This document shows, one piece after another, positions 39,095-50,262 of a stretch of DNA of 64,000 bases (its first letter is position 1; each line of letters opens with the position of its first letter). Made by a program: the position numbers and the translations under genes. The notes below the pieces were generated by a model. That model worked only from the letters and a program-made list of their open reading frames with translations. It made no database searches and was not told the DNA's origin. Source of the stretch: Jiangellales bacterium. Lineage in GTDB: Bacteria > Actinomycetota > Actinomycetes > Jiangellales > Jiangellaceae. The DNA lies in the NCBI GenBank assembly GCA_030447955.1, contig JAUJNY010000001.1, forward strand, positions 8,858 through 72,857. Direction: 5' to 3'.

Positions 39095-39496
39095 GTGTGC
39101 ACGACCGCAGCGGATGCCGGGATCCGTGTCGTACCGGCCGACGAGGCCAGCTGGGAGGACCTGCAGACCGTCTTCGGGACCCGCGGCCAGGCGTCGAGGT
39201 GTCAATGCCAGCGGTACAAGTTGGGGCCGAGAGAGTCCTTCGTCTCGTTGCCGGCCGAGGAACGCGCCCATCGGCTGCGCCGCCCCACAGAGCGACTGCA
39301 GCCACGGGAGTCGGACACGACCAGCGGCCTTGTCGAGGTCAACACCAGGGTCGCATGCTTGCTCGAGCGATACCGGCCGTTCTGGTCCGCCCAGAACGAC
39401 CACAGCCCAACCACTGACGAGCGTCGGGACCCCTCACTAGGGTCAGGGGCACGACCGAAGAGCGCAGGGGGGAGATCACGTGCCGAGCATTTATGA
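39095..39496 (+). pseudogene. truncated GNAT acetyltransferase
   Basis: The first 80 residues from GTG 39095 match the N-terminus of a common actinobacterial GNAT protein (VVPADEASWEDLQTVFGTRG, CQCQRYKLGPRESF, EERAHRLR, TTSGLV). The expected continuation with the acetyl-CoA site is absent: after about 39333 the frame runs through unrelated residues and ends 17 bases inside the helicase gene. The gene was probably cut by arrival of the adjacent defence-like cassette, marking its left border. Confidence 0.75.
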
Positions 39497-42400
39497 CAAC
39501 TTGGCTGACTCATCACGGCTAGGCCCTGCGCTGCAGGAGGCGCTGAAGGCGTTCGACCGTGTCGACGTTGCCACCGGCTACCTCGACCTCCGAGGCTGGT
39601 CGACCATAGCCGACCTGATCACCTCGAAGGTTCCTGGCGGGGCAGCCGAAGCGCCAGTGGCGCGCGTCCTCATCGGTATGGTGATGGCCTCGGACGCCCG
39701 AGAGATGTTGACGGCACTCCAAGACGCAGTGCAGCCCCCTCCCTACGGTGCCGGAATCAACGACCGCGAGAAGGCGCTGCGGGCTCGCGACAAGCTGGTG
39801 CGGCACCTGCGGGATCAACTGATGCGTGGCCTGCCCACCAAGGACGATCAGGCCACTCTCCGGAAGCTGCGTGAACAACTGCACTCGGGTGCGGTCGAGA
39901 TAAAGGTCTTCACCGACGCGCCGCTGCACGGAAAGACTTACGTCTTCCATCAGCCCGAGGCGCCGCAACTGAAGAGGTACGCATACGTGGGATCGTCCAA
40001 TTTCACCGGTGCGGGGCTGATGCGCAATCTCGAGCTCAACCTCGACGTGATGGAGCAGGACGCCGCCGGTAAGCTCGCACAGTGGTTCACTGACCGATGG
40101 GATGCAAGGTTCTCGCTCCCGATGACCGCCGACCTCATTGATCTCATCGAGGAGTCGTGGGCCGGCGAAGAGCAGCCCACGCCGTTCGAGGTCTACCTCA
40201 AGGTCTGTCACAGCCTGTCCGAGGACGCTCGAGAAGGAATGGGATACGTTCTGCCGGCCTCGATGAAGAACCTGCTCCTGGACTACCAGGAGACCGCCGT
40301 GCGCACCCTGGCGCGGCGGATCGTGCGACGCGGCGGCACGATGCTCGGCGACGTGGTGGGCCTCGGGAAGACCCTGACCGCGATCGCTACCGCCCTCATG
40401 CTCGAAGCCGCTGAGGACTACACAGCCCTGGTGCTCTGCCCAAAGAACCTTGAACAGATGTGGCAGGAGCACCTCGATTTCTACGGCCTCACGGGCGCCC
40501 GCGTCGTTCCCTACTCGATGGCGGACAAGAAACTTCCTGAGCTGAAGCGGTTTCATCTTGTGATCTGCGACGAGTCGCACAACTTGCGGAACAACACCAC
40601 GAAAGCATCCGAGGCAATCCGGGACTATGTCCGGCGTAACGGCTCCAAGGTTCTCCTGCTGACGGCGACGCCGTACAACCTTGCGTTTACAGACGTCGCC
40701 AACCAGATCGGCCTCTATATCGAGGACGACGAAGACTTGGGGATCCAGCCGACTGACGCAATGGCCGTGGACCCCGGCCTCGCCGACAAGGTGGACGGCA
40801 AGGTCACGACCCTCGCTGCCTTTAGAAGATCGGAAGAGGCCGGGGACTGGAAGCGGCTGATGAGCGATCACCTCGTGCGACGCACCCGCTCGTTCGTCAA
40901 GCGGACCGCCAAGAAGGAGACCGTCACCTTGCCCGACGGCACCACCGAGGAGCGCGAATACCTCCAGTTCACCAACGGCGAGCGGTTCCACTTCCCCAGA
41001 CGCGTGCCCCGGCCGCTCAGTCATGACTTTGCCAACGACGACTCGGCCCTGCTGATGGAGGACAACGACACCCTGGACGCGGTACGGGATCTCACTCTGC
41101 CGCGCTACCGCCTCGCCGAGTACGATGACCCCAGGGCTCCGCACACCGACGCCGACACCAAGTACCTCGACGACATCCGTTCCGGGCGCGGGAACGTCAG
41201 CGGGTTCGTTCGAGTCGGGCTATTCAAACGACTATCGTCGTCGGGCCACTCGTTCATCCTCAGCCTCCAGCGGCAACGAGCCCGCAACGAACTCTTCATT
41301 CATGCCGTCGACAACAGGCTGCCGGTTCCACTCGGCAGTTTCAGCGACCACCAGTTCATGGTCAGCGACCGCGACCTCGAGGACGAGACCGGCCTGCACG
41401 GCACCATGGAGAGCCGCTACCACGAACTCGGGCGCAAGCTTCCCACCTCAGCCAAGTGGATCAACTCCACCGTGTTCAAGCCTCAACTGCGCGAGAACCT
41501 CCAGCACGACAACCGCATCATCACCGAACTCCTAGACCGGTTCGGGCCTTGGGACTCGACGAAGGACTCCAAGGTCAACGCACTCGTGGACATGCTGCGC
41601 GAGCAGCACCCGGACGAGAAGGTGCTGATCTTCACCGAGTACGTCGACACCGCCGACTACGTCGCCCAAGCCCTCCGAGATGCCGGAGTCGTGAACGTCG
41701 GTCTCGCCACTGGCGAGACCGAGGACCCCGCAGGCATCGCCCGGCGCTTCTCTCCCGAGAGCAACCGGCTCCCCGGCGAGGCAACACAGCGCACGGAAAA
41801 GGTTCTTGAGTCACCGATCGACGTGCTGGTGGCAACCGATGTCCTGTCCGAGGGACAGAACCTGCAGGACTCCCACATCGTTGTTAACTACGACCTGCCT
41901 TGGGCGATCATCCGGATCATCCAGCGCGCCGGTCGCGTAGACCGAGTCGGCCAGAAGTCCGACACGGTCTACGTCTATTCGATTTCGCACGACAAGGTCG
42001 ACCAGCAGATCTCCGTACGCAGAAGGATTCGCGAACGTCTCGGAGCCAATGCCGCAGCCTTTGGGTCGGACGAGCAGTTCTTCGGCACAGAGGATGAAGT
42101 AAATTTGCTTGAGGGATTCTACGAAGGCAAGATGCCTGAGGGTGACGAACTCGACGTTACGGAGGGCGAGGCAGACGCGGTCAGCGAGGCCTGGCTTGTC
42201 TGGTCAAACGTCAAGGATCACCAGCCACAGCTGGCTAACAAGGTCCTGCACATGCAGGATCTCGTGCACAGCACCCGCGACCAGTACGTGCACGAGAGAC
42301 ACGGCGGCGTCATTTGCTACGCCTCCACCGCGTCTGGGGTCGACGCGTTCGCCATCTCGTACACCGACTCCTCCCAGACGACGCGTGAACGGCTGCTGAC

Positions 42401-42800
42401 CCCCCTGGAGGCACTCCGAAGCTTTCAGGCTCAGGAGAGCACCCCCACCGCACCGCTGCGGGACGACCACTTCGACCGCGAGGCCTGCCTGATCCGGAGC
42501 AAGCTGACGACCGAGATAGTCGCGATCGGCAATCTGAAGGGGATCCGCAAGTGGGCCGTCGAACGGCTCGGCGGCACGATCTTCGGACAGGACGCAGCCG
42601 AGGCGGTCGCCGCCATGAATGAGCGGCCGCTGACGGAACACGCCAACGTTCGGCTCCGCCAGGCCCGGCGCAGCAGGTACAGCGAGCAGGACCTCGTCGA
42701 TCTGGTCAACCAGTTGCACAGTGAGGAACGTCTGGTCATCGGCTCCACCGACAAAGACCAGATCAAGATCGTGTGCTCGATTGGAGTGACAGAGCAGTGA
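39480..42800 (+). CDS. PLD-like nuclease/SNF2-family helicase fusion protein
   Basis: 1106 residues. Residues 1-240 form a phospholipase-D-like domain with H150-x-K152 (LHGKTYVFH) and GSSNFTGAGL at 171-180. Residues 260-900 form an SNF2/HepA-type superfamily 2 motor: Walker A GDVVGLGKTLTA (K297), DESH at 364-367, LTATPYN near 395, then helicase C with ATDVLSEGQNLQD and QRAGRVDRVGQ. The tail (900-1106) has no recognised domain. The GTG start follows GGGGGAG. It overlaps the methyltransferase start (GTGA), giving a two-gene unit that looks like anti-phage or restriction machinery. It resembles DrmD/DrmC pieces of DISARM, but drmA and drmB are missing. Confidence 0.88.
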   Translation: MPSIYDNLADSSRLGPALQEALKAFDRVDVATGYLDLRGWSTIADLITSKVPGGAAEAPVARVLIGMVMASDAREMLTALQDAVQPPPYGAGINDREKALRARDKLVRHLRDQLMRGLPTKDDQATLRKLREQLHSGAVEIKVFTDAPLHGKTYVFHQPEAPQLKRYAYVGSSNFTGAGLMRNLELNLDVMEQDAAGKLAQWFTDRWDARFSLPMTADLIDLIEESWAGEEQPTPFEVYLKVCHSLSEDAREGMGYVLPASMKNLLLDYQETAVRTLARRIVRRGGTMLGDVVGLGKTLTAIATALMLEAAEDYTALVLCPKNLEQMWQEHLDFYGLTGARVVPYSMADKKLPELKRFHLVICDESHNLRNNTTKASEAIRDYVRRNGSKVLLLTATPYNLAFTDVANQIGLYIEDDEDLGIQPTDAMAVDPGLADKVDGKVTTLAAFRRSEEAGDWKRLMSDHLVRRTRSFVKRTAKKETVTLPDGTTEEREYLQFTNGERFHFPRRVPRPLSHDFANDDSALLMEDNDTLDAVRDLTLPRYRLAEYDDPRAPHTDADTKYLDDIRSGRGNVSGFVRVGLFKRLSSSGHSFILSLQRQRARNELFIHAVDNRLPVPLGSFSDHQFMVSDRDLEDETGLHGTMESRYHELGRKLPTSAKWINSTVFKPQLRENLQHDNRIITELLDRFGPWDSTKDSKVNALVDMLREQHPDEKVLIFTEYVDTADYVAQALRDAGVVNVGLATGETEDPAGIARRFSPESNRLPGEATQRTEKVLESPIDVLVATDVLSEGQNLQDSHIVVNYDLPWAIIRIIQRAGRVDRVGQKSDTVYVYSISHDKVDQQISVRRRIRERLGANAAAFGSDEQFFGTEDEVNLLEGFYEGKMPEGDELDVTEGEADAVSEAWLVWSNVKDHQPQLANKVLHMQDLVHSTRDQYVHERHGGVICYASTASGVDAFAISYTDSSQTTRERLLTPLEALRSFQAQESTPTAPLRDDHFDREACLIRSKLTTEIVAIGNLKGIRKWAVERLGGTIFGQDAAEAVAAMNERPLTEHANVRLRQARRSRYSEQDLVDLVNQLHSEERLVIGSTDKDQIKIVCSIGVTEQ

Positions 42801-45634
42801 GCAGTGATCTCGTCTCCCAGTCAGAGAAGCGGGCCTACGGCGACCTTTTTAGGCTCGATCTCAACTGGGGAGCGCCCGACCACCCGCCGATCACCCTTGA
42901 GCTCGACGATGGCGAGACACTGACCGCCACGAATGTCTCGTCCTACAAGGGACTTCGCGTCTGGGAGTGCCCGAGCCTCCCCGGCTCCGTCCTGGAGGCG
43001 AAGCTCGAGCAGCTCATCGCCAAGACCACCACCAACCGTCTTGTCATCTTCCACGACGATGACAAGCAGATCTGGCGCTGGCCCTCCCGAACCAGCGACG
43101 GGGCAGGCGTCACGTCCCGACCGGCACGCCATGAACACCGGAACGGCTCACCCAACCCCACGTTCGCGACAAAGCTCGACGCCATTAGACTCCCCGACGA
43201 CATCGTTCTCGACGTCAACGCCGTCCTCACCAAGGTGCGCGATGCGTTCGACGTCGAGACCAAAAGGGAGACCAAGCGCGCCTCGAAACTCATGGCAATG
43301 ATGTACGCCGCCGTGGAGAAGGGTTATCCGGCCTCCTTCGACCCCGCCAAACGCGATCACCAGATCTCCGTCACGCTCGCCCGGGTCCTCTTCTTACTCT
43401 TCGGCGATGACACAGAGATGTGGACGGATGGCCAGGGGGAGCCACTTCCTGACCTGTTCCAAAACTTTGTCAAGGACCACACATCCCGCGACGGCTCCGA
43501 CATCGGACGGCGCATCAACGAACTTTTCGAAGCACTGGACAGGCCACCGGACGCCCGCACTCGTACGCCGACCGAGCTCAAGGCGTTCCCCTACGTTAAC
43601 GGCGGCATCTTCAAGGAGCCCATCCAGCTCCCCCAGCTCGACAAGGACTTCCGGGATACCCTACTCAAGGCCGCCGCCGTCGACTGGGCCACGATCAGCC
43701 CAGCGATCTTCGGTTCCATGTTCCAGTCCGTGCGTGACGCCAGGACCCGCCGCGAGCTCGGTGAGCACTACACCTCCGAAGAGAACATCCTCAAGACCCT
43801 CAACCCCCTGTTTCTGGACGAGCTCCGACTCGGACTGGCGGATGCCCTCGCTCGCGACTCCCTGCAGAAGCGAGTCAACGCCCTCAACAAGCTATGGAGC
43901 CACCTCGGCGACCTGCGGTACATGGATCCCGCCTGCGGATGCGGCAACTTCATCATCGTCGCCTACCGAGAACTCCGTGCGATCGAACTCGACATCATGA
44001 GCTCGCTGGCGGATCTCCAGCACGGCCAGGGGAGTGAGACGCTCGGCGCCGACTGGACCAGCCTGCTGAGGGTGACACTCGACCACTTCTACGGCATCGA
44101 GATCGACGAGTGGCCAGCGCGCCTCGCCGAGACAGCGATGTTCCTCGTTGACCGGCAGTGTGACCTGAAGCTGAAAGAAAGATTCGGCATGGCTCCCGAG
44201 CGCCTACCGATTCAACACGAGGCGCGCATCATTGTCGGGAATGCCCTAGAGCTGGACTGGGCTGACATTCTGAAGCCGAGCTCGAACGTGGTGGTTGCTG
44301 GTAACCCGCCATTCTTGGGAATCTCCCTGCGGTCAGCAAAGCAGACCGTGGAACTCAGGGCGGTCTGGGGGCAACGATACCACGGAACTCTCGACTACGT
44401 CACGGGATGGCACGCACGCGCGTTGGAGTACTTCGCCCGTCACGATGGCCGCTGGGCCCTGGTCTCGACGAACTCGATCACGCAGGGCGAGGCGGTCGCT
44501 CCGCTGTTCCGACCCATCTTTGGCCTGGGCTGGCAGATTAAGTTCGGGCACCGGACCTTCAAGTGGACCTCCGAGGCAACGGGCCAGGCTGCCGTCCACT
44601 GCGTGATCATCGGCTTCGAGCGCAGCCCCCTAGTCAAGCGCCTCTTCGACTACCCGAGAGCGGACGCCCAACCGGTCGAGGTTGCCGGTGTCAAGAACAT
44701 CAGCCCGTACCTCACTGACAGCCCGACCGTCATCGTGGAGCCAAGCAGCAGGCCCCTCAACCCCCAACTCGGCGAGGTCTCCTACGGCAACAAGCCAACG
44801 GATGGCGGCTGGCTCATTATCGGCGCCGATGAGTACGCCGATGTCGCTTCCGACGCGATCGCAGTGACGTACATCCGGCCATACGTCGGCGCGCGCGAAC
44901 TGCTGCATGGGGGCAGCCGCTACTGTCTTTGGCTCGTGGATGCGCCGGCCGGTGACCTGAGGCGTAGTGCAGTACTGCGTCAGCGCGTTGCGGGCGTGCG
45001 GGAGTTTCGCCTGCGCAGCAAGGCGTCATCGACGCGTGAGGCTACCGAGACGGCACACCTGTTCCGGCAGATCGCCCAGCCTACGACCCCCTACTTGTGC
45101 ATACCTGCACATGTCTCTGAGAACAGGCCGTACTTCCTCACGGCTCGATTTGGTCCGCATGTCGTCACGAGCAATGCGAACTTCCTAACGGTAGACGCGG
45201 ACGGCTTCGAGTTCGCCATCGTCTCGTCGAGCATGTTCATCACTTGGCAGAAGACAGTCGGCGGTCGGCTTGAGTCCAGGCTCCGGTTCAACAAGTTGCT
45301 GACCTGGAACACGTTCCCGCTGCCGACGATAGTTCCGGAGGTCAGACGCAAGATGATTAACGCCGGTAAGCAGGTCCTTGCCGCGCGGGAACGCGTGTCG
45401 GAGACCTCCCTTGCGGACATGTACCCATCCACCGGGGTTGCGAGCGACTTGCAGGAGGCGCATGACACCCTCGACAGGGCGGTAGATGGCGCCTTCGGTC
45501 TGGCTCGGAGGGACGTCACACAGCTGGAGCGACAGGCTGTGCTTTTCGAGCGCTACCTTGAGATGACCACCGGACTTCTCCACTCCAAACCCGCGCGCTC
45601 AAAACAGTCACGCCGTCGCGTCGCTGGCAAGTGA
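42797..45634 (+). CDS. MmeI-like adenine-specific DNA methyltransferase
   Basis: 945 residues. From about residue 195 the protein follows MmeI closely: FPYVNGGIF, SPAIFGSMFQSV, GEHYTSEENILK, SAM motif DPACGCGNFI (about 377-386), catalytic NPPF (503-506), ALVSTNSITQGEAV, TVGGRLESRLRF and a C-terminal target-recognition region. NPPF predicts N6-adenine methylation, as in MmeI, which protects one strand only. The first 180 residues do not resemble the MmeI nuclease and show no clear D...ExK. DNA cleavage may therefore be delegated to the PLD-helicase partner. The GTG start overlaps the helicase stop. Confidence 0.88.
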   Translation: MSSDLVSQSEKRAYGDLFRLDLNWGAPDHPPITLELDDGETLTATNVSSYKGLRVWECPSLPGSVLEAKLEQLIAKTTTNRLVIFHDDDKQIWRWPSRTSDGAGVTSRPARHEHRNGSPNPTFATKLDAIRLPDDIVLDVNAVLTKVRDAFDVETKRETKRASKLMAMMYAAVEKGYPASFDPAKRDHQISVTLARVLFLLFGDDTEMWTDGQGEPLPDLFQNFVKDHTSRDGSDIGRRINELFEALDRPPDARTRTPTELKAFPYVNGGIFKEPIQLPQLDKDFRDTLLKAAAVDWATISPAIFGSMFQSVRDARTRRELGEHYTSEENILKTLNPLFLDELRLGLADALARDSLQKRVNALNKLWSHLGDLRYMDPACGCGNFIIVAYRELRAIELDIMSSLADLQHGQGSETLGADWTSLLRVTLDHFYGIEIDEWPARLAETAMFLVDRQCDLKLKERFGMAPERLPIQHEARIIVGNALELDWADILKPSSNVVVAGNPPFLGISLRSAKQTVELRAVWGQRYHGTLDYVTGWHARALEYFARHDGRWALVSTNSITQGEAVAPLFRPIFGLGWQIKFGHRTFKWTSEATGQAAVHCVIIGFERSPLVKRLFDYPRADAQPVEVAGVKNISPYLTDSPTVIVEPSSRPLNPQLGEVSYGNKPTDGGWLIIGADEYADVASDAIAVTYIRPYVGARELLHGGSRYCLWLVDAPAGDLRRSAVLRQRVAGVREFRLRSKASSTREATETAHLFRQIAQPTTPYLCIPAHVSENRPYFLTARFGPHVVTSNANFLTVDADGFEFAIVSSSMFITWQKTVGGRLESRLRFNKLLTWNTFPLPTIVPEVRRKMINAGKQVLAARERVSETSLADMYPSTGVASDLQEAHDTLDRAVDGAFGLARRDVTQLERQAVLFERYLEMTTGLLHSKPARSKQSRRRVAGK

Positions 45635-45794
45635 GGATCCTGCCTGGCCACACTCAAGGCGCGTCCCCCGACATGGACTACCGAGCGACAAACTGGCTCT
45701 ACGCCACCATGCGTGGATGGGCGTAGTGCCAGATTGGGTGGGTAGGCGACGGGGCGGGCTGTGACTGCTTTGGGGTGAGTGGGTCGAGCCTACG

Positions 45795-46410
45795 TTGTGC
45801 TGCGCGCTGCCTGGCTACTGCGCGCGGGTGGACACGCTGTTAACCACGGGGCCGTGCATGTGGTCGACGTCGGCTAGCGCCTCGGGGCCGGGTCGATCGG
45901 CTGGTGCTGAGCGTGGAGAACCATCCCGCCGCCGGTGGGTGTCGATGCGGTGTCCTCGCGGTCGCGCTTGGCCGGCGGGTCGGCGGTTGCACGACATCCC
46001 GGCGTTCGGGCGCCGGTGGAGCTGGCGTGGCGCTCGCGTCGCTACCGCTGCGCCGAGCCGCTGTGTGGGCGGGTCGCTCACCGAGCACTCGGCGTTGGCT
46101 CACCGGGTGCGCTGCTGACGGCTCGGGCGGCGTGGTGGGCGCCGGCTGCATCCAGCGGGGACCGCCTCGGTCGCTGCGGTCGCGCGCCGGCTCGGGTGGA
46201 CTGGCACACCCTGCGGGAGGCGATCAAGGCGCTGCCGGAAGAGCTGGCCCGCCGACCCGGCCAGGCGGGGGGGTGCAAGTGCTCGAGGCGGACGATCCAT
46301 CCGGCACCACACACGCCGACCCGGCAAGGGCCCAAGCGGTTGACCGGGATGGTCGATCTCACCAAGCGGGGCCCCGACCCGGACGGAGCAGGCGCTGAGA
46401 ACTCATCTTC
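45795..46410 (+). pseudogene. decayed ISL3-family transposase
   Basis: Pieces of an actinobacterial ISL3 transposase appear in order in different frames: LVLSVENHPAAGGCRCGVLA, RLHDIPAFGRR, VELAWRSRRYRCAEPLC, ALLTARAAWWA, then DWHTLREAIKALPEELA and GPKRLTGMVDLTKRG. At least four frameshifts are needed and the C-terminal half (DDE catalytic core) is missing. It is a dead remnant at the right edge of the restriction-like cassette. The bases from 45635 to 45794 hold no gene I can identify, and those from 46411 to 46518 likewise. Confidence 0.8.
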
Positions 46411-46518
46411 AAGAGGCGTTCCTAGCACTGTTCACGCGCCCGAGGTCGAAACCAGAGCGTCGGTCGAGCCCGGTGACGCGCCGCGGTGACCTCGATCCAC
46501 CATCGGCGCCTGCACTAC

Positions 46519-47232
46519 TCAGTAGGTGTAGGACAGGGTGATCTTGGGGTCTGCCTGAAAGGCCCAGCCGAAGCTGGTCTGTGAACCGAGTTGCACGGGC
46601 GTGTTAGAGCCAGAGACCAAGTTGGCAGCCGGCTGGCCCGGCATCGGCTCGATGACGGGGGGTGCGATGGCGCCGTGGAAGTCGAGCGGGAAGACGACGG
46701 TGGCGCCCAGCCGAACGTTGCTCACCGGTGCCAGGCTGAGCTGCGGAGCATACATAGTGAAGCTGTACCGACGCGGGTCGCCGTCGACGGGAAGCAACTT
46801 TTGGCTGGCGTGGATCCGGAGTACCTGCGTGCCGGCCGGGATGACGATGTCTGCGATCTTGTAGTGCTCCGCGTGCGCCTGGAGCTGGTCCTCGACGTCG
46901 GCATTCGGGTCGAGGCTGATGCTTGCCTTGTCGAGGACCGGCTGGATAATGCCTGCTTGGGCGTGCACGATCCGCTTGAAGGTCGCGATGGCCTTGAAGT
47001 GTTCCTCGCTCGCTGAGACCACGCGTACGACGGCCGAGGTTCCAGATTCGACATCGGCAGCGAGCACGAGTCGGTAGGACTGTTCGGCCGGTGAGTTGAC
47101 CGTTGCGGTGATCGTCATGTTGGCCACGTCGTAGGAGTCGCCGCCGAACTGGTGGAGCGGCGCAATCGACTCGACATCGACGTTGATGCCCTGATTGAGT
47201 ACCTGCAGGTCGGTAGTGATCGGGGTCGACAC
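46519..47232 (-). CDS. unrecognised beta-rich protein, last gene of sigma/ImmA unit
   Basis: 237 residues from GTG 47232 with GGGAG upstream. No signal peptide or membrane helix. The sequence is rich in alternating hydrophobic strands (VANMTITATVNS, SYRLVLAADVES, SNVRLGATVVFPLDF) and looks like one or two beta-sandwich domains. It ends KITLSYTY. No family is recognised. It follows the 51-residue gene by 73 bp on the same strand and is probably in the same transcript. It could be a structural or secreted cargo protein; no evidence decides this. Confidence 0.7.
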   Translation of the reverse strand: MSTPITTDLQVLNQGINVDVESIAPLHQFGGDSYDVANMTITATVNSPAEQSYRLVLAADVESGTSAVVRVVSASEEHFKAIATFKRIVHAQAGIIQPVLDKASISLDPNADVEDQLQAHAEHYKIADIVIPAGTQVLRIHASQKLLPVDGDPRRYSFTMYAPQLSLAPVSNVRLGATVVFPLDFHGAIAPPVIEPMPGQPAANLVSGSNTPVQLGSQTSFGWAFQADPKITLSYTY

Positions 47233-47305
47233 GTTGGGACTCCCTTGCTGAGTGAGGAGGGTTAGGGGTTGCCGGCGGCATCTGGTCGAGTCGCTGGCGA
47301 AGCGG

Positions 47306-47461
47306 CTACTTCTCGTTGCGCACGCCCTTGTGCTGTTTCCGACTGCCGTTCAGGATGCGGCCGGTGGCGGTGTCGCGCTTGAACCAGGTCTTGCCGACCT
47401 TGAACTCGCTGCGGCCCTTGACGGCACCGACACGGCCGCCTCGTCCGGTGTTCTTGGCCAT
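47306..47461 (-). CDS. 51-residue basic protein
   Basis: ATG at 47461, stop at 47306. The protein begins MAKNTGRGGRVGAVKGR and includes KVGKTWFKRDTATGRI and KQHKGVRNEK. It is strongly basic, with no membrane helix. Similar short proteins (NTGRG...RDT-TGRI...KGVR-EK) are scattered in actinobacterial genomes, often in accessory DNA, without known function. A GGGAG site lies 9 bases upstream. It lies between the ImmA peptidase and the 237-residue protein in the leftward unit. Possibly nucleic-acid binding. Confidence 0.75.
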   Translation of the reverse strand: MAKNTGRGGRVGAVKGRSEFKVGKTWFKRDTATGRILNGSRKQHKGVRNEK

Positions 47462-47548
47462 CTGCATCGACTCCCATCCGAGAGCCCGCGTCCGTTGCGT
47501 CGGCTCCCGGCATGTAGTCGAGGCAGGGGCCGAGAGAGTTAGTCCGCG

Positions 47549-48568
47549 TCAGCCGCGACACTCCTCGCAGAGCCCATCAACCAGCAGATGGGACTGGAAC
47601 CGCAGGAAGCATCGGCGGCACGTCCCTTCGCTTGCCGCGCGGCGCTCACAGCGGCATCTCTGGCACTGGGGGCAGAAGGGCTCGCCGCACTCGCCGCAGG
47701 GGTAGCCGCGGACCTGACGGGTCTGACCGCAGCAGCGCACCTCCATCTGTGGCCGCCGGTCGTACTCCCGCGGGGCATCGATGTGGAGGCGCTCGGCGCC
47801 CCACAGGTCGATGTCACACAAGACGGCAATGATTCGACGCTGGTCAGCGACGGCGTCGATGTAGTAGTCCTGCCGGGCGCCCCAAGGCGTTTGCCAGAAC
47901 GTCTTGCGGGTCAGCCCAATGCCGGGCTGGAGTTGTCGCAGCGGGTGCCCGGGCGGCACCGTTTGATCCGGCCACGGGAACACGGTCGGCCAACCCTCGT
48001 CGGGGTCCGGGCGGACGCTGGCGTACTCAACCCGACCCGTGTCCCGCTCGATGATCGCGATCGCTCCAAGACGAGGTATCCGCTCGGCGAGGGCGATGGC
48101 GCACGCGGGCCGGCTGGCGTTGGTGGCGGCGACGAGGCTCATCACCTGTCTTGCGCGGATCGGGCCGCCGGCCACGGCCTCCGCGACGGCACCTTCCGGC
48201 AGTAGGAGTCGCTGAGCAATCCGGTCACACATCGTCTCCAGCATCTTCGGCGAATCCGACTGCTCCCACAGCCAGTCATAGAGACCCGGTGCCTGATCCA
48301 CCAGGTAGTGCCCGAGTTCATGAGCCAAGGTGAAATTCACGCGGCGATTGCCGGTTTCGCGGTACAGAACGACTCCGTCTCTGAGGTAGGAAACGCCGTC
48401 GCACACGCCACCATCATTGCGCCGCTCATCGAGTTGCGCTACGGGGTGAAGAACCAGACCTAATTCCTCGCGCAAGGTCTCAGCAGGCGCCCCTGCGAAG
48501 CGTTTGGCCACGCCAGGGTCGAGTTTGGCAATACATCGAATCACCAAGTCATCAAGGCGCGTCCCCAT
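47549..48568 (-). CDS. ImmA/IrrE-family zinc metallopeptidase with Cys-rich tail
   Basis: 339 residues from ATG 48568. The catalytic motif is H83-E84-x-x-H87 (LAHELGHYL), with a likely third ligand in the MCDRIAQRLLLP helix near residue 115. The middle part (about 130-265) has no clear motif. The C-terminal 65 residues hold at least fourteen cysteines in CxxC pairs (YPCGECGEPFCPQCQRC, CRRCF, LCEEC), a zinc-ribbon or treble-clef array. ImmA/IrrE proteases typically cleave an XRE repressor; the partner here would be the protein encoded upstream, with a 17-base overlap. Confidence 0.85.
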   Translation of the reverse strand: MGTRLDDLVIRCIAKLDPGVAKRFAGAPAETLREELGLVLHPVAQLDERRNDGGVCDGVSYLRDGVVLYRETGNRRVNFTLAHELGHYLVDQAPGLYDWLWEQSDSPKMLETMCDRIAQRLLLPEGAVAEAVAGGPIRARQVMSLVAATNASRPACAIALAERIPRLGAIAIIERDTGRVEYASVRPDPDEGWPTVFPWPDQTVPPGHPLRQLQPGIGLTRKTFWQTPWGARQDYYIDAVADQRRIIAVLCDIDLWGAERLHIDAPREYDRRPQMEVRCCGQTRQVRGYPCGECGEPFCPQCQRCRCERRAASEGTCRRCFLRFQSHLLVDGLCEECRG

Positions 48569-49220
48569 GTCCTTGCTCCACCTCCAAGGCCGACACCAGA
48601 GCATTGAGCGAAGCCAACATCTGATCCATATCGGGCTGGGCGCCGCGATGGACCGCCGCCGTGACCCGAGCGGCCAGAGCGGACTCTGCAAAGTCTGCGG
48701 TCGTTCGCCGCGCCTCGGCCCAACGCCGGACAAGCTGGGTGAACCTGGGATCGCTCATCACTTCCTGGATGGCGTTCGCGAAGGGGCTGGGGCCAGCATC
48801 GTCCGTCAGCTGCTCGACTGCTGTCCCGGTGACCTCAGCGATCGCCTCGATTAGGGCAGGTGGAATCTCCGCGGTTGATTTCTGCCAGTTGAAGACGTCG
48901 CGCGGCTCGATTCCCCAGCCACGAGCAGACAACCGCCGTGCCAGTTCGCTGGGCTTGAGGTCGGTGGCTCTCATGACTCTAGTCAGCGCTCGGTCATCGA
49001 GCGTGCGGGAGCTGTCTGGAACCAAACCGAGCATGGCAGCCACGGGGTCGACGTTCAGCGGCGGTGCGCCATGGGCCCGCTCCCTCAGCAGATCCGCCAC
49101 CTCGAGCAGTGATTCGATCTCGGTTCGATCTCTGCTGTCGAGCGACTCCAGCGACAAGGCTCGATCCTGAGGACGGCTGTCGAGCAGCTCCTCCAGCATC
49201 CTGTCTTGCTCCTTGCTCAT
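48552..49220 (-). CDS. XRE-like HTH protein between sigma factor and ImmA
   Basis: 222 residues. The N-terminal 65 residues are acidic and helical. A helix-turn-helix of XRE type spans about 78-140 (LTRVMRATDLKPSELARRL, then DVFNWQKS and ALIEAIAEVTG). The C-terminal helices (about 150-222) may dimerise. The ATG overlaps the sigma-factor stop (ATGA), so it is translationally coupled. By position it could be an anti-sigma factor or a repressor cut by ImmA; neither is proven. Confidence 0.75.
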   Translation of the reverse strand: MSKEQDRMLEELLDSRPQDRALSLESLDSRDRTEIESLLEVADLLRERAHGAPPLNVDPVAAMLGLVPDSSRTLDDRALTRVMRATDLKPSELARRLSARGWGIEPRDVFNWQKSTAEIPPALIEAIAEVTGTAVEQLTDDAGPSPFANAIQEVMSDPRFTQLVRRWAEARRTTADFAESALAARVTAAVHRGAQPDMDQMLASLNALVSALEVEQGHGDAP

Positions 49221-49750
49221 GACTCCACCCCCTCCTCGATGAGTGCGTCTCGCAACACTCGCAAAGCCGCGTTCCTCATCTGACTGACCCGGCCCGGCGT
49301 CACGCCCAGCTCCTCCGCGACCTCGTCGCGTGCACGTCCCAAGGCGACGAGGTCCCAGACAACCTTTCGATGCCGGCCGTCCAGGAGCGTGAGCTTGTCC
49401 CAGAGGACAGCCCCCCTGTGTTGACGGTCGACCAACTCGGCCACCTCGTCGGCCATGTCTGTCTGATCAGGAGCGTCGTGCTCTGGCTTCAGCTCCGGAC
49501 CCGCGCGCCGGTGGGCAGCCGAGCGAAGGAGGTCGACTGATCGCCGCTTCACAGCGGTGACCAGGACGGCCTCCCAGTTCTTCACTCCGCTCGGTGGCGT
49601 CTGCATCAGCGAGACGATGGCAGTGGAGACGACGTCCTCTGCTTCCACCTCCCGCCCCGTGCCACGCAGCAGTCGGTAGGCGACCCTGTACATCGTGTGG
49701 CGATGCTTCTGATACAGGGCCGCCCAATCTGGTGGCACGACCTCGGCCAT
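49217..49750 (-). CDS. ECF-like sigma-70 family factor
   Basis: 177 residues. Region 2 is WAALYQKHRHTMYRVAYRL...AEDVVSTAIVSLM; region 4 is LLDGRHRKVVWDLVALGRA...VAEELGVTPGRVSQMRNAAL. There is no extra C-terminal domain. A strong AGGAGG lies 5 bases before the ATG at 49750. It heads a leftward unit with the XRE-like protein and the ImmA peptidase. The usual ECF anti-sigma membrane protein is absent. It probably drives its own operon. Confidence 0.85.
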   Translation of the reverse strand: MAEVVPPDWAALYQKHRHTMYRVAYRLLRGTGREVEAEDVVSTAIVSLMQTPPSGVKNWEAVLVTAVKRRSVDLLRSAAHRRAGPELKPEHDAPDQTDMADEVAELVDRQHRGAVLWDKLTLLDGRHRKVVWDLVALGRARDEVAEELGVTPGRVSQMRNAALRVLRDALIEEGVES

Positions 49751-50262
49751 GTGTCCTCCTTTCGCAACCAAGTCGACGGTTCGTGCATCACATGAGGTAG
49801 TCGAGACGGGCGACATAGGAGTTAGCCGATCGAGAGCCGGAGCTTGACCGTTGCAGGCTCGGGTGTCGGGCGCGTGAGGGCTCCGCCGAACAGGAGTTCG
49901 GCGGACGCACCGGCTATTGCTGGCACAACGCGCGGCCGTCCCGCTTCCCTGACCCCTCAACGGGCCTGATCCTAGTCTCCATCATCTACCGACGTCGGGC
50001 TTGAGCGAGACGAAAACGAACACGTCTGACAACCGTCGTGATTACGTCAGTGACGGGCCTGCCCGCGAGGTGTAACGGGGTCGCCGGGTGCAACTACGGC
50101 CGGCGTGGTTCTTCGACTTCACCGCACCGGGTGATGGGCCGCGGATGCGGTGTTCCGGTGATGGAACATCGGGCGCAGCCGAGGCGCCCGGCATGTCGCC
50201 CGCCGAGTTGACCTGCAGGAGCTGCTTGTGGGCGGCGGCTAGATGATGTCCACGGACCGCCG
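49751..50262. other. 512-bp intergenic region with a perfect hairpin
   Basis: No convincing gene. The main structure is a perfect 10-bp inverted repeat TCCGCCGAAC-AGGA-GTTCGGCGGA at 49882-49905, 358 bp past the dnaB stop, which could end dnaB transcription. The segment around 50000-50045 is locally less GC-rich and may hold the promoter of the sigma-factor unit, but I cannot fix -35 and -10 boxes with confidence. Confidence 0.6.

Follow-up and report, generated by a model that had tools for sequence, protein, structure and literature searches.

A phospholipase D-Swi2/Snf2 helicase and an MmeI-type methyltransferase apparently lacking its nuclease form a probable two-gene restriction-modification cassette

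The DNA analysed here (the window) is a stretch of 64,000 nucleotides from a Jiangellales bacterium (GenBank assembly GCA_030447955.1, contig JAUJNY010000001.1, positions 8,858 to 72,857). It carries a cassette of two overlapping genes, encoding a phospholipase D (PLD)-like nuclease fused to a Swi2/Snf2 motor (the helicase) and an MmeI-family N6-adenine methyltransferase. This composition had been read from the letters alone in an original prediction and was borne out by the open reading frames (ORFs), Pfam matches and catalytic motifs. The pair probably constitutes a two-gene ATP-dependent restriction-modification system, with a restriction activity that we infer from the encoded domains. The genes are arranged as follows:

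39480..42800 (+), PLD-Swi2/Snf2 helicase-nuclease gene, 1106 aa
42797..45634 (+), MmeI-family N6-adenine methyltransferase gene with target recognition domain (TRD), 945 aa
42797..42800 (+), GTGA stop/start overlap of the two genes, 4 nt

The helicase gene begins with GTG and is preceded by a purine-rich, Shine-Dalgarno-like stretch. Mechanical translation placed the methyltransferase ORF at 42773-45634 (+), and the GTG at 42797, which forms the GTGA with the helicase stop codon, was preferred as the start because it aligns with the homologues. The 4-base overlap, likewise predicted, is kept in 12 of 13 actinobacterial homologous pairs.

In the helicase, Pfam matches were obtained to PLDc_2 (E 1.7e-9), the RE_NgoFVII PLD domain (5.1e-7), SNF2-rel_dom (3.9e-13) and Helicase_C (5.7e-17), and the following features were located by Pfam and alignment:

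39849..40100 (+), PLD-like nuclease domain (aa 124-207)
39927-39935 (+), HxK of the PLD domain (HGK, H150 and K152)
39990-40001 (+), GSSN of the PLD domain (aa 171-174)
40284..40679 (+), Swi2/Snf2 ATPase lobe 1
40347-40373 (+), Walker A of lobe 1 (GDVVGLGKT, aa 290-298)
40569-40580 (+), DESH of lobe 1 (aa 364-367)
41571..41951 (+), Helicase C lobe (aa 698-824), with motif VI QRAGRVDR (aa 815-822)

When 20 helicase relatives were aligned, His150, Gly171, Asn174, GDVVGLGKT and DESH were invariant and Lys152, Ser172 and Ser173 nearly so, the sole exception being a decayed homologue (L017, described below). This is strong sequence evidence that the PLD nuclease and the Swi2/Snf2 motor to which it is fused are both intact. 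Each chain holds a single HKD motif, which implies dimerisation of the PLD domain. No SRA or other reader domain was matched by Pfam in the C-terminus, a region that is uncharacterised, and the predicted structure of the protein was of low confidence (pLDDT 63, pTM 0.43).

The methyltransferase (METHYLTRANSFERASE) matched MmeI_Mtase (1e-79), MmeI_TRD (1.6e-58), MmeI_hel (4.6e-16) and MmeI_C (3e-14), with the following organisation:

42797..43246 (+), N-domain (aa 1-150), in place of the MmeI PD-(D/E)XK nuclease and common to all cassette methyltransferases
43382..43636 (+), MmeI helical spacer (aa 196-280), from Pfam
43889..44671 (+), gamma-class N6-adenine methyltransferase domain (aa 365-625), from Pfam and MmeI alignment
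43925-43951 (+), S-adenosylmethionine motif DPACGCGNF, intact
44303-44314 (+), NPPF motif (GNPPF), intact
44744..45355 (+), MmeI-type TRD (aa 650-853), specificity residues intact
45368..45601 (+), MmeI C-terminal helical domain (aa 858-935), from Pfam

Both the motifs and the domain content argue strongly that the MmeI-type N6-adenine methyltransferase is intact and has a TRD of its own. Against the MmeI structure (PDB 5hr4) the protein aligned to residues 183-912 (E 2.5e-168) and residues 1-182 found no counterpart; the MmeI endonuclease occupies residues 1-155 (PMC4833311). The N-domain of about 150 aa had no Pfam match, no PD-(D/E)XK motif was present at the nuclease position in the cassette methyltransferases, and their N-domains share no invariant D, E or K. 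We therefore regard it as strongly supported that the window methyltransferase lacks the MmeI nuclease domain and any recognisable nuclease of its own. Stand-alone MmeI-like enzymes from actinobacterial plasmids and genomes kept D...(E/Q)xK in all seven N-termini that were read (for example DMFMPGKVIGEAK in the protein of locus L035), and neither the N-domain nor a full-length PLD-Snf2 helicase was found at any of eight stand-alone loci within flanks of 4 kb (plasmid loci) or about 8 kb (genome loci). At L035 there was one weak partial match to the helicase hidden Markov model (17 bits) in a cut-off SNF2 gene. A sequence relationship between the N-domain and the MmeI nuclease was rejected (hhalign probability 0.4%). 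An AlphaFold2 model of the N-domain (pLDDT 85) has an alpha-beta-beta-beta-alpha-beta order that would fit a degenerate PD-(D/E)XK fold, and a Foldseek search with this model gave nothing significant, the best biologically relevant match being DrdV (E 0.05, TM 0.3).

The N-domain was found in 23 of 72,556 plasmid records, 22 of which also carried the close helicase family. The remaining record was Calothrix NIES-4101. Among IMG/VR sequences the helicase was followed by an N-domain methyltransferase in all four full-length homologues, and three of 397 actinobacterial genomes held the N-domain, each time adjoining the helicase (in one of them only a helicase remnant). The exclusivity of this pairing is strong but not absolute. 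A Dolichospermum plasmid carries a decayed cassette (L017:8001-12209) in which the helicase has lost HxK and the methyltransferase is cut down to its N-domain region (286 aa), which suggests that the two genes decay together. Overall, the co-occurrence is strong sequence evidence that helicase and methyltransferase are inherited as a unit. The neighbourhood survey proposed with the original prediction thus found that the pair recurs across phyla on its own, with neither drmA/drmB nor DUF499 beside it. Together with the finding that the MmeI nuclease is exactly the missing part, this gives good support to the predicted redistribution of nuclease, motor and modification over two genes of a restriction-like system.

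The N-domain is common to partners of two types (hhalign probability 99.7, E 6e-27), namely MmeI-type methyltransferases in Actinomycetota and Eco57I-type methyltransferases in Synechocystis, Picosynechococcus, Anabaena and Pelobacter. In a small set of 12 actinobacterial pairs, helicase divergence was correlated with the divergence of the N-domain (r = 0.97), of the spacer (0.95) and, less closely, of the methyltransferase domain (0.78), as opposed to 0.13 for the TRD and 0.14 for the C-terminal domain (Mantel p = 0.0002 for N-domain and spacer, 0.20 for the TRD and 0.17 for the C-terminal domain). This provides strong sequence evidence for co-evolution of the N-domain and spacer with the motor and for free exchange of the TRD. 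The pattern is the one expected of an N-domain that contacts the helicase and a recognition unit that recombination replaces, and we propose that the N-domain is a helicase-docking domain. Linkage alone is argued against by the free exchange of the TRD, which lies on the same gene. Whether the pair represents a distinct, unnamed class of ATP-dependent restriction-modification system is in our judgement an even call; such a class would combine a PLD-Swi2/Snf2 motor-nuclease and a dedicated N-terminal docking domain, as conserved chassis, with an exchangeable cartridge in the form of a reader of more than one origin (MmeI-type or Eco57I-type).

A CHARACTERISED relative is found on plasmid pSYSX of Synechocystis PCC 6803, which carries a homologous pair (WP_011153866, WP_011153869) with SGL_RS01585 as its helicase. 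It shares the helicase family (36% identity over the full length) and the N-domain with the window cassette, and differs from it in having an Eco57I-type methyltransferase core and VapC-type toxin-antitoxin genes between the two genes. The pSYSX methyltransferases are M.Ssp6803IV and M.Ssp6803V (PMC6604393), and the latter belongs to the type I system slr6095-97 (PMC7296061). Since only two annotated DNA methyltransferase loci were found on the plasmid, the cassette methyltransferase (SGL_RS01600) is by elimination most probably M.Ssp6803IV, which produces GAm6AGGC, an asymmetric N6-adenine motif (PMC7296061, PMC6604393). The PADLOC Type IIG model PDLC03628 matched the pSYSX methyltransferase at full length with 2661.8 bits, so that the model was evidently derived from this protein or one almost identical to it; its Type IIG label leaves out the helicase partner.

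The recognition site of the window cassette was predicted by applying the MmeI contact-residue code (PMC4833311) to the residue identities of its TRD. In MmeI numbering, Tyr/Lys at 642/645 specify C at position 2, Ala/Arg at 774/810 R at position 4, and Glu/Arg at 806/808 C at position 6. Ala723 and Gln738 point to A at position 1, with which Arg737 conflicts, and position 3 (Ala751/Asn773) was left as N. The predicted site is 5'-ACNRm6AC-3', with the m6A at position 5 and position 1 the least certain. Across the partners these specificity combinations are both kept and varied (E806/R808 or K806/D808; E751/N773 or R751/D773; A774/R810 or K774/S810), and homologous cassettes with other combinations should therefore have different sites.

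Taken together, the two genes appear to encode a DNA methyltransferase and endonuclease functions side by side, as expected of restriction-modification systems in general. In the mechanism that we propose, the methyltransferase would bind an asymmetric hexamer and methylate one strand of the host DNA. At an unmethylated site the N-domain would hold or recruit the PLD-Snf2 protein, which would hydrolyse ATP and move along the DNA, and cutting would follow from the collision of two motors or from PLD dimerisation. A need for convergence from two head-to-head sites would spare newly replicated host DNA, in which only one parental strand is methylated, a safeguard also seen with Type ISP and Type III enzymes. 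We infer for the pair that translocation is driven by ATP, that the PLD domain cleaves unmodified DNA and that two sites are required.

Several points weigh against this interpretation. To our knowledge, no experiment has shown cleavage or phage restriction by any member. The head-to-head requirement is suggested by analogy only, and physical contact between N-domain and helicase by co-evolution only; moreover, the distance correlation may partly reflect the shared ancestry of adjacent genes and comes from 12 pairs. In Calothrix NIES-4101 an N-domain methyltransferase occurs with no adjoining PLD-Snf2 partner. Finally, the domain also occurs outside methyltransferases: L063 (IMGVR_UViG_3300014822_000151) has a second N-domain as part of a sigma-factor fusion. 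The 396-aa protein concerned (L063:13145-14335), encoded just downstream of the cassette, joins an N-domain (aa 2-157) to sigma-70 regions 2 and 4; it may act as a regulator, using this docking domain to sense motor protein that is free.

Four other explanations were considered. In the first, the pair would act by exclusion in the manner of BREX, DISARM or ARMADA, the methyltransferase marking self and the motor blocking or processing incoming DNA with no site-specific cleavage, or acting with other host factors. DISARM class I, ARMADA and BREX-related systems indeed have in common a core of Swi2/Snf2 helicase and N6-adenine methyltransferase (PMC12458937, PMC12839542), and PADLOC and NCBIfam gave matches to DrmD, BrxH and DpdE. 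However, in the profile searches that had been suggested at the outset all NCBIfam scores fell far under the family cut-offs, the pair stands alone with no YprA, DrmA/B, DUF499 or PglZ beside it, and the motor carries a fused PLD nuclease in which HxK...GSSN is conserved. This explanation is accordingly considered rather unlikely.

Alternatively, the cassette could be an epigenetic or plasmid-maintenance module, in which the methyltransferase is the functional product, serving to regulate genes or to bring about post-segregational killing once the mark is lost, and the PLD motor ensures that the mark is kept rather than defending against phages. Consistent with this, cassettes occur on plasmids of all mobility classes, all four sequenced pSYSX-type records retain the cassette, and in several cyanobacteria genes of VapC-type toxin-antitoxin systems lie between helicase and methyltransferase. 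Given that the TRD diversifies fast compared with the rest of the protein, as expected for the targeting of changing foreign DNA, that defence genes are found among the neighbours and that the same genotype would also give restriction, we consider this explanation very unlikely.

That the methyltransferase is an ordinary Type IIG or IIL enzyme cutting by itself, beside an unrelated helicase, is suggested by its MmeI similarity and by the PADLOC label REase_MTase_IIG (PDLC03598, 865 bits), yet the latter match (model positions 154-909) begins after the nuclease domain, as does that to MmeI, the N-domain lacks the PD-(D/E)XK motif, and the helicase almost always adjoins it and shares a conserved 4-nt overlap, which leaves this explanation highly improbable. 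Equally improbable is a modification-dependent, Type IV-like activity, with a motor-nuclease that reads modified DNA and a methyltransferase that is there by chance. A PLD-helicase fusion of this kind is known from SauUSI (PMC7913695), but the motor of the cassette almost always comes with an intact methyltransferase, whose N-domain divergence follows that of the motor, and the helicase C-terminus gave no reader match.

The original prediction had taken base composition as a sign of horizontal transfer, and the cassette lies in an island of low G+C content:

39103..50262 (no strand), low-G+C island holding the cassette, between a dinB-like gene and dnaB, 64.2% G+C

The helicase gene has 62.7% and the methyltransferase gene 62.5% G+C, compared with 72.0% in the flanking window, a difference of about 9.5 points. 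In two same-family relatives the genes bracketing the island, MST and dnaB, are 1.6-3.2 kb apart and no helicase or methyltransferase match was present in the region. This synteny makes horizontal gain of the cassette better supported; the flanking debris that had also been adduced for transfer was not established. Window positions 45.8-46.4 kb held no recognisable gene and no Pfam match, and transposase debris 3' of the methyltransferase was rejected on this basis. Elsewhere in the island (47549-49960, -) an overlapping run of a sigma-70-like gene, an unknown 222-aa gene and an ImmA/IrrE-like protease was observed, the protease matching PADLOC capP (8e-14).

Additional genes were observed at homologous loci. 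A DprA-like (PF02481) third gene is present at L061:9784-10425 and L062:14683-15339, overlapping the cassette methyltransferase by 4 nt in both, and at L063:14332-14979, downstream of the N-domain-sigma gene. Synechocystis/Picosynechococcus plasmids have a VapC-family toxin gene and a small ORF, which separate helicase from methyltransferase in L009, L019 and L023 and adjoin the methyltransferase in L024, where the helicase is broken and rearranged. Downstream of the methyltransferase in Anabaena cylindrica (L013) and Calothrix NIES-4101 (L085) come an ATP-binding protein and a DUF4276 protein; L085, which lacks the PLD-Snf2 helicase, has a D5-type helicase upstream. The cassettes of L003, L005 and L006 are near Mokosh-like (MkoA), Lamassu LmuB and PDC-S37/Hhe-like proteins. 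Members of a broader set of PLD-Snf2 helicases in Actinomycetota, Thermus and archaea also lie beside or near N6-adenine methyltransferases that lack the N-domain, with the methyltransferase gene first, and the window cassette is therefore one clade of a wider theme. In L056, L058, L059, L060, L025 and L026, and also in haloarchaea, a large Eco57I-type N6-adenine methyltransferase gene precedes the helicase. These methyltransferase-first loci are probably sister two-gene systems. The helicase tree, a preliminary one that includes one mistranslated row (L029), was used only for the coarse split between them and the window clade.

How MmeI-family systems that mark one strand avoid cutting their own freshly replicated DNA is a standing question (raised in PMC3874165). 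The cassette gives an MmeI-type reader a translocating motor, which makes a test of head-to-head sites biochemically accessible. MmeI recognition is largely readable from sequence, and the modular design suggests a programmable restriction chassis in which motor-nuclease and docking domain stay and the recognition unit is swapped. Some methyltransferases labelled Type IIG or 'orphan', probably including M.Ssp6803IV, may be half of such pairs, and Synechocystis is a widely used model cyanobacterium with routine knock-outs.

No named system of this composition was found in the open-access papers searched, an incomplete set that does not include REBASE, in keeping with the expectation that the pair had not already been classified. 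Type-2 BREX-related (BR) systems (PMC12839542) share an N-terminal HKD nuclease fused to a Swi2/Snf2 helicase beside an N6-adenine methyltransferase. They contain a DUF499 ATPase, encode DUF3780 in 98% of taxa and have methyltransferases with a DUF1156 domain (PMC12839542), as opposed to the MmeI type of the cassette. DUF499 (PF04465) had no match in the source genome, which is 82% complete, and DUF3780 had none among the neighbouring ORFs scanned, the whole genome not having been searched for it. DISARM class I (drmD, drmMI) and ARMADA (PMC12458937) likewise have a Swi2/Snf2 helicase beside an N6-adenine methyltransferase. The drmA and drmB genes are absent from the window neighbours and the plasmid loci, as had been anticipated in setting the system apart from DISARM, and DISARM did not hold up as the nearest relative either (DrmD, 125.6 bits against an equivalog cut-off of 610). 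The phospholipase D-like anti-phage family NF042964 scored 159 bits against a curated cut-off of 1100, and the only MZB/YprA-type gene of the genome is about 215 kb away, as against the YprA-like helicase in the operon of ARMADA. Membership of DISARM or BREX was thus rejected, with scores far under the cut-offs and partner genes absent.

SauUSI (PMC7913695) combines a PLD nuclease with a helicase-like motor in a single chain. It recognises methylated DNA and needs no methyltransferase partner, whereas the cassette has one. In CglI and NgoAVII the PLD endonuclease carries the DNA-recognition domain, unlike the cassette, in which recognition would lie with the methyltransferase. The two systems (PMC5737866, PMC4267653) show ATP-dependent restriction, which the cassette would share, with a PLD nuclease, an SF2 helicase-like motor, a methyltransferase and an asymmetric site; their endonuclease, DEAD-family motor and methyltransferase are products of three genes, as opposed to the PLD-Snf2 fusion seen here. 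The Type ISP enzymes LlaGI and LlaBIII (PMC3874165) have the same inventory of nuclease, SF2 motor, gamma-class methyltransferase and TRD and also act at asymmetric sites, and the translocation-collision mode suggested for the cassette is drawn by analogy from them. They are single polypeptides with an Mrr-type PD-(E/Q)xK nuclease (PD-QxK), whereas the cassette is divided over two polypeptides, its nuclease is of PLD type and its motor of the Swi2/Snf2 class. With the Type IIL enzyme MmeI (PDB 5hr4; PMC4833311) the cassette methyltransferase aligns end to end over spacer, gamma-class methyltransferase, TRD and C-terminal bundle, and has the MmeI-type methyltransferase and TRD in one chain; in place of the N-terminal PD-(D/E)XK endonuclease of that chain it has the N-domain, and cleavage would be assigned to a separate ATP-driven partner. 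The cassette is thus a member of none of these groups as defined, and its closest working models are Type ISP (PMC3874165), CglI (PMC5737866) and SauUSI (PMC7913695).

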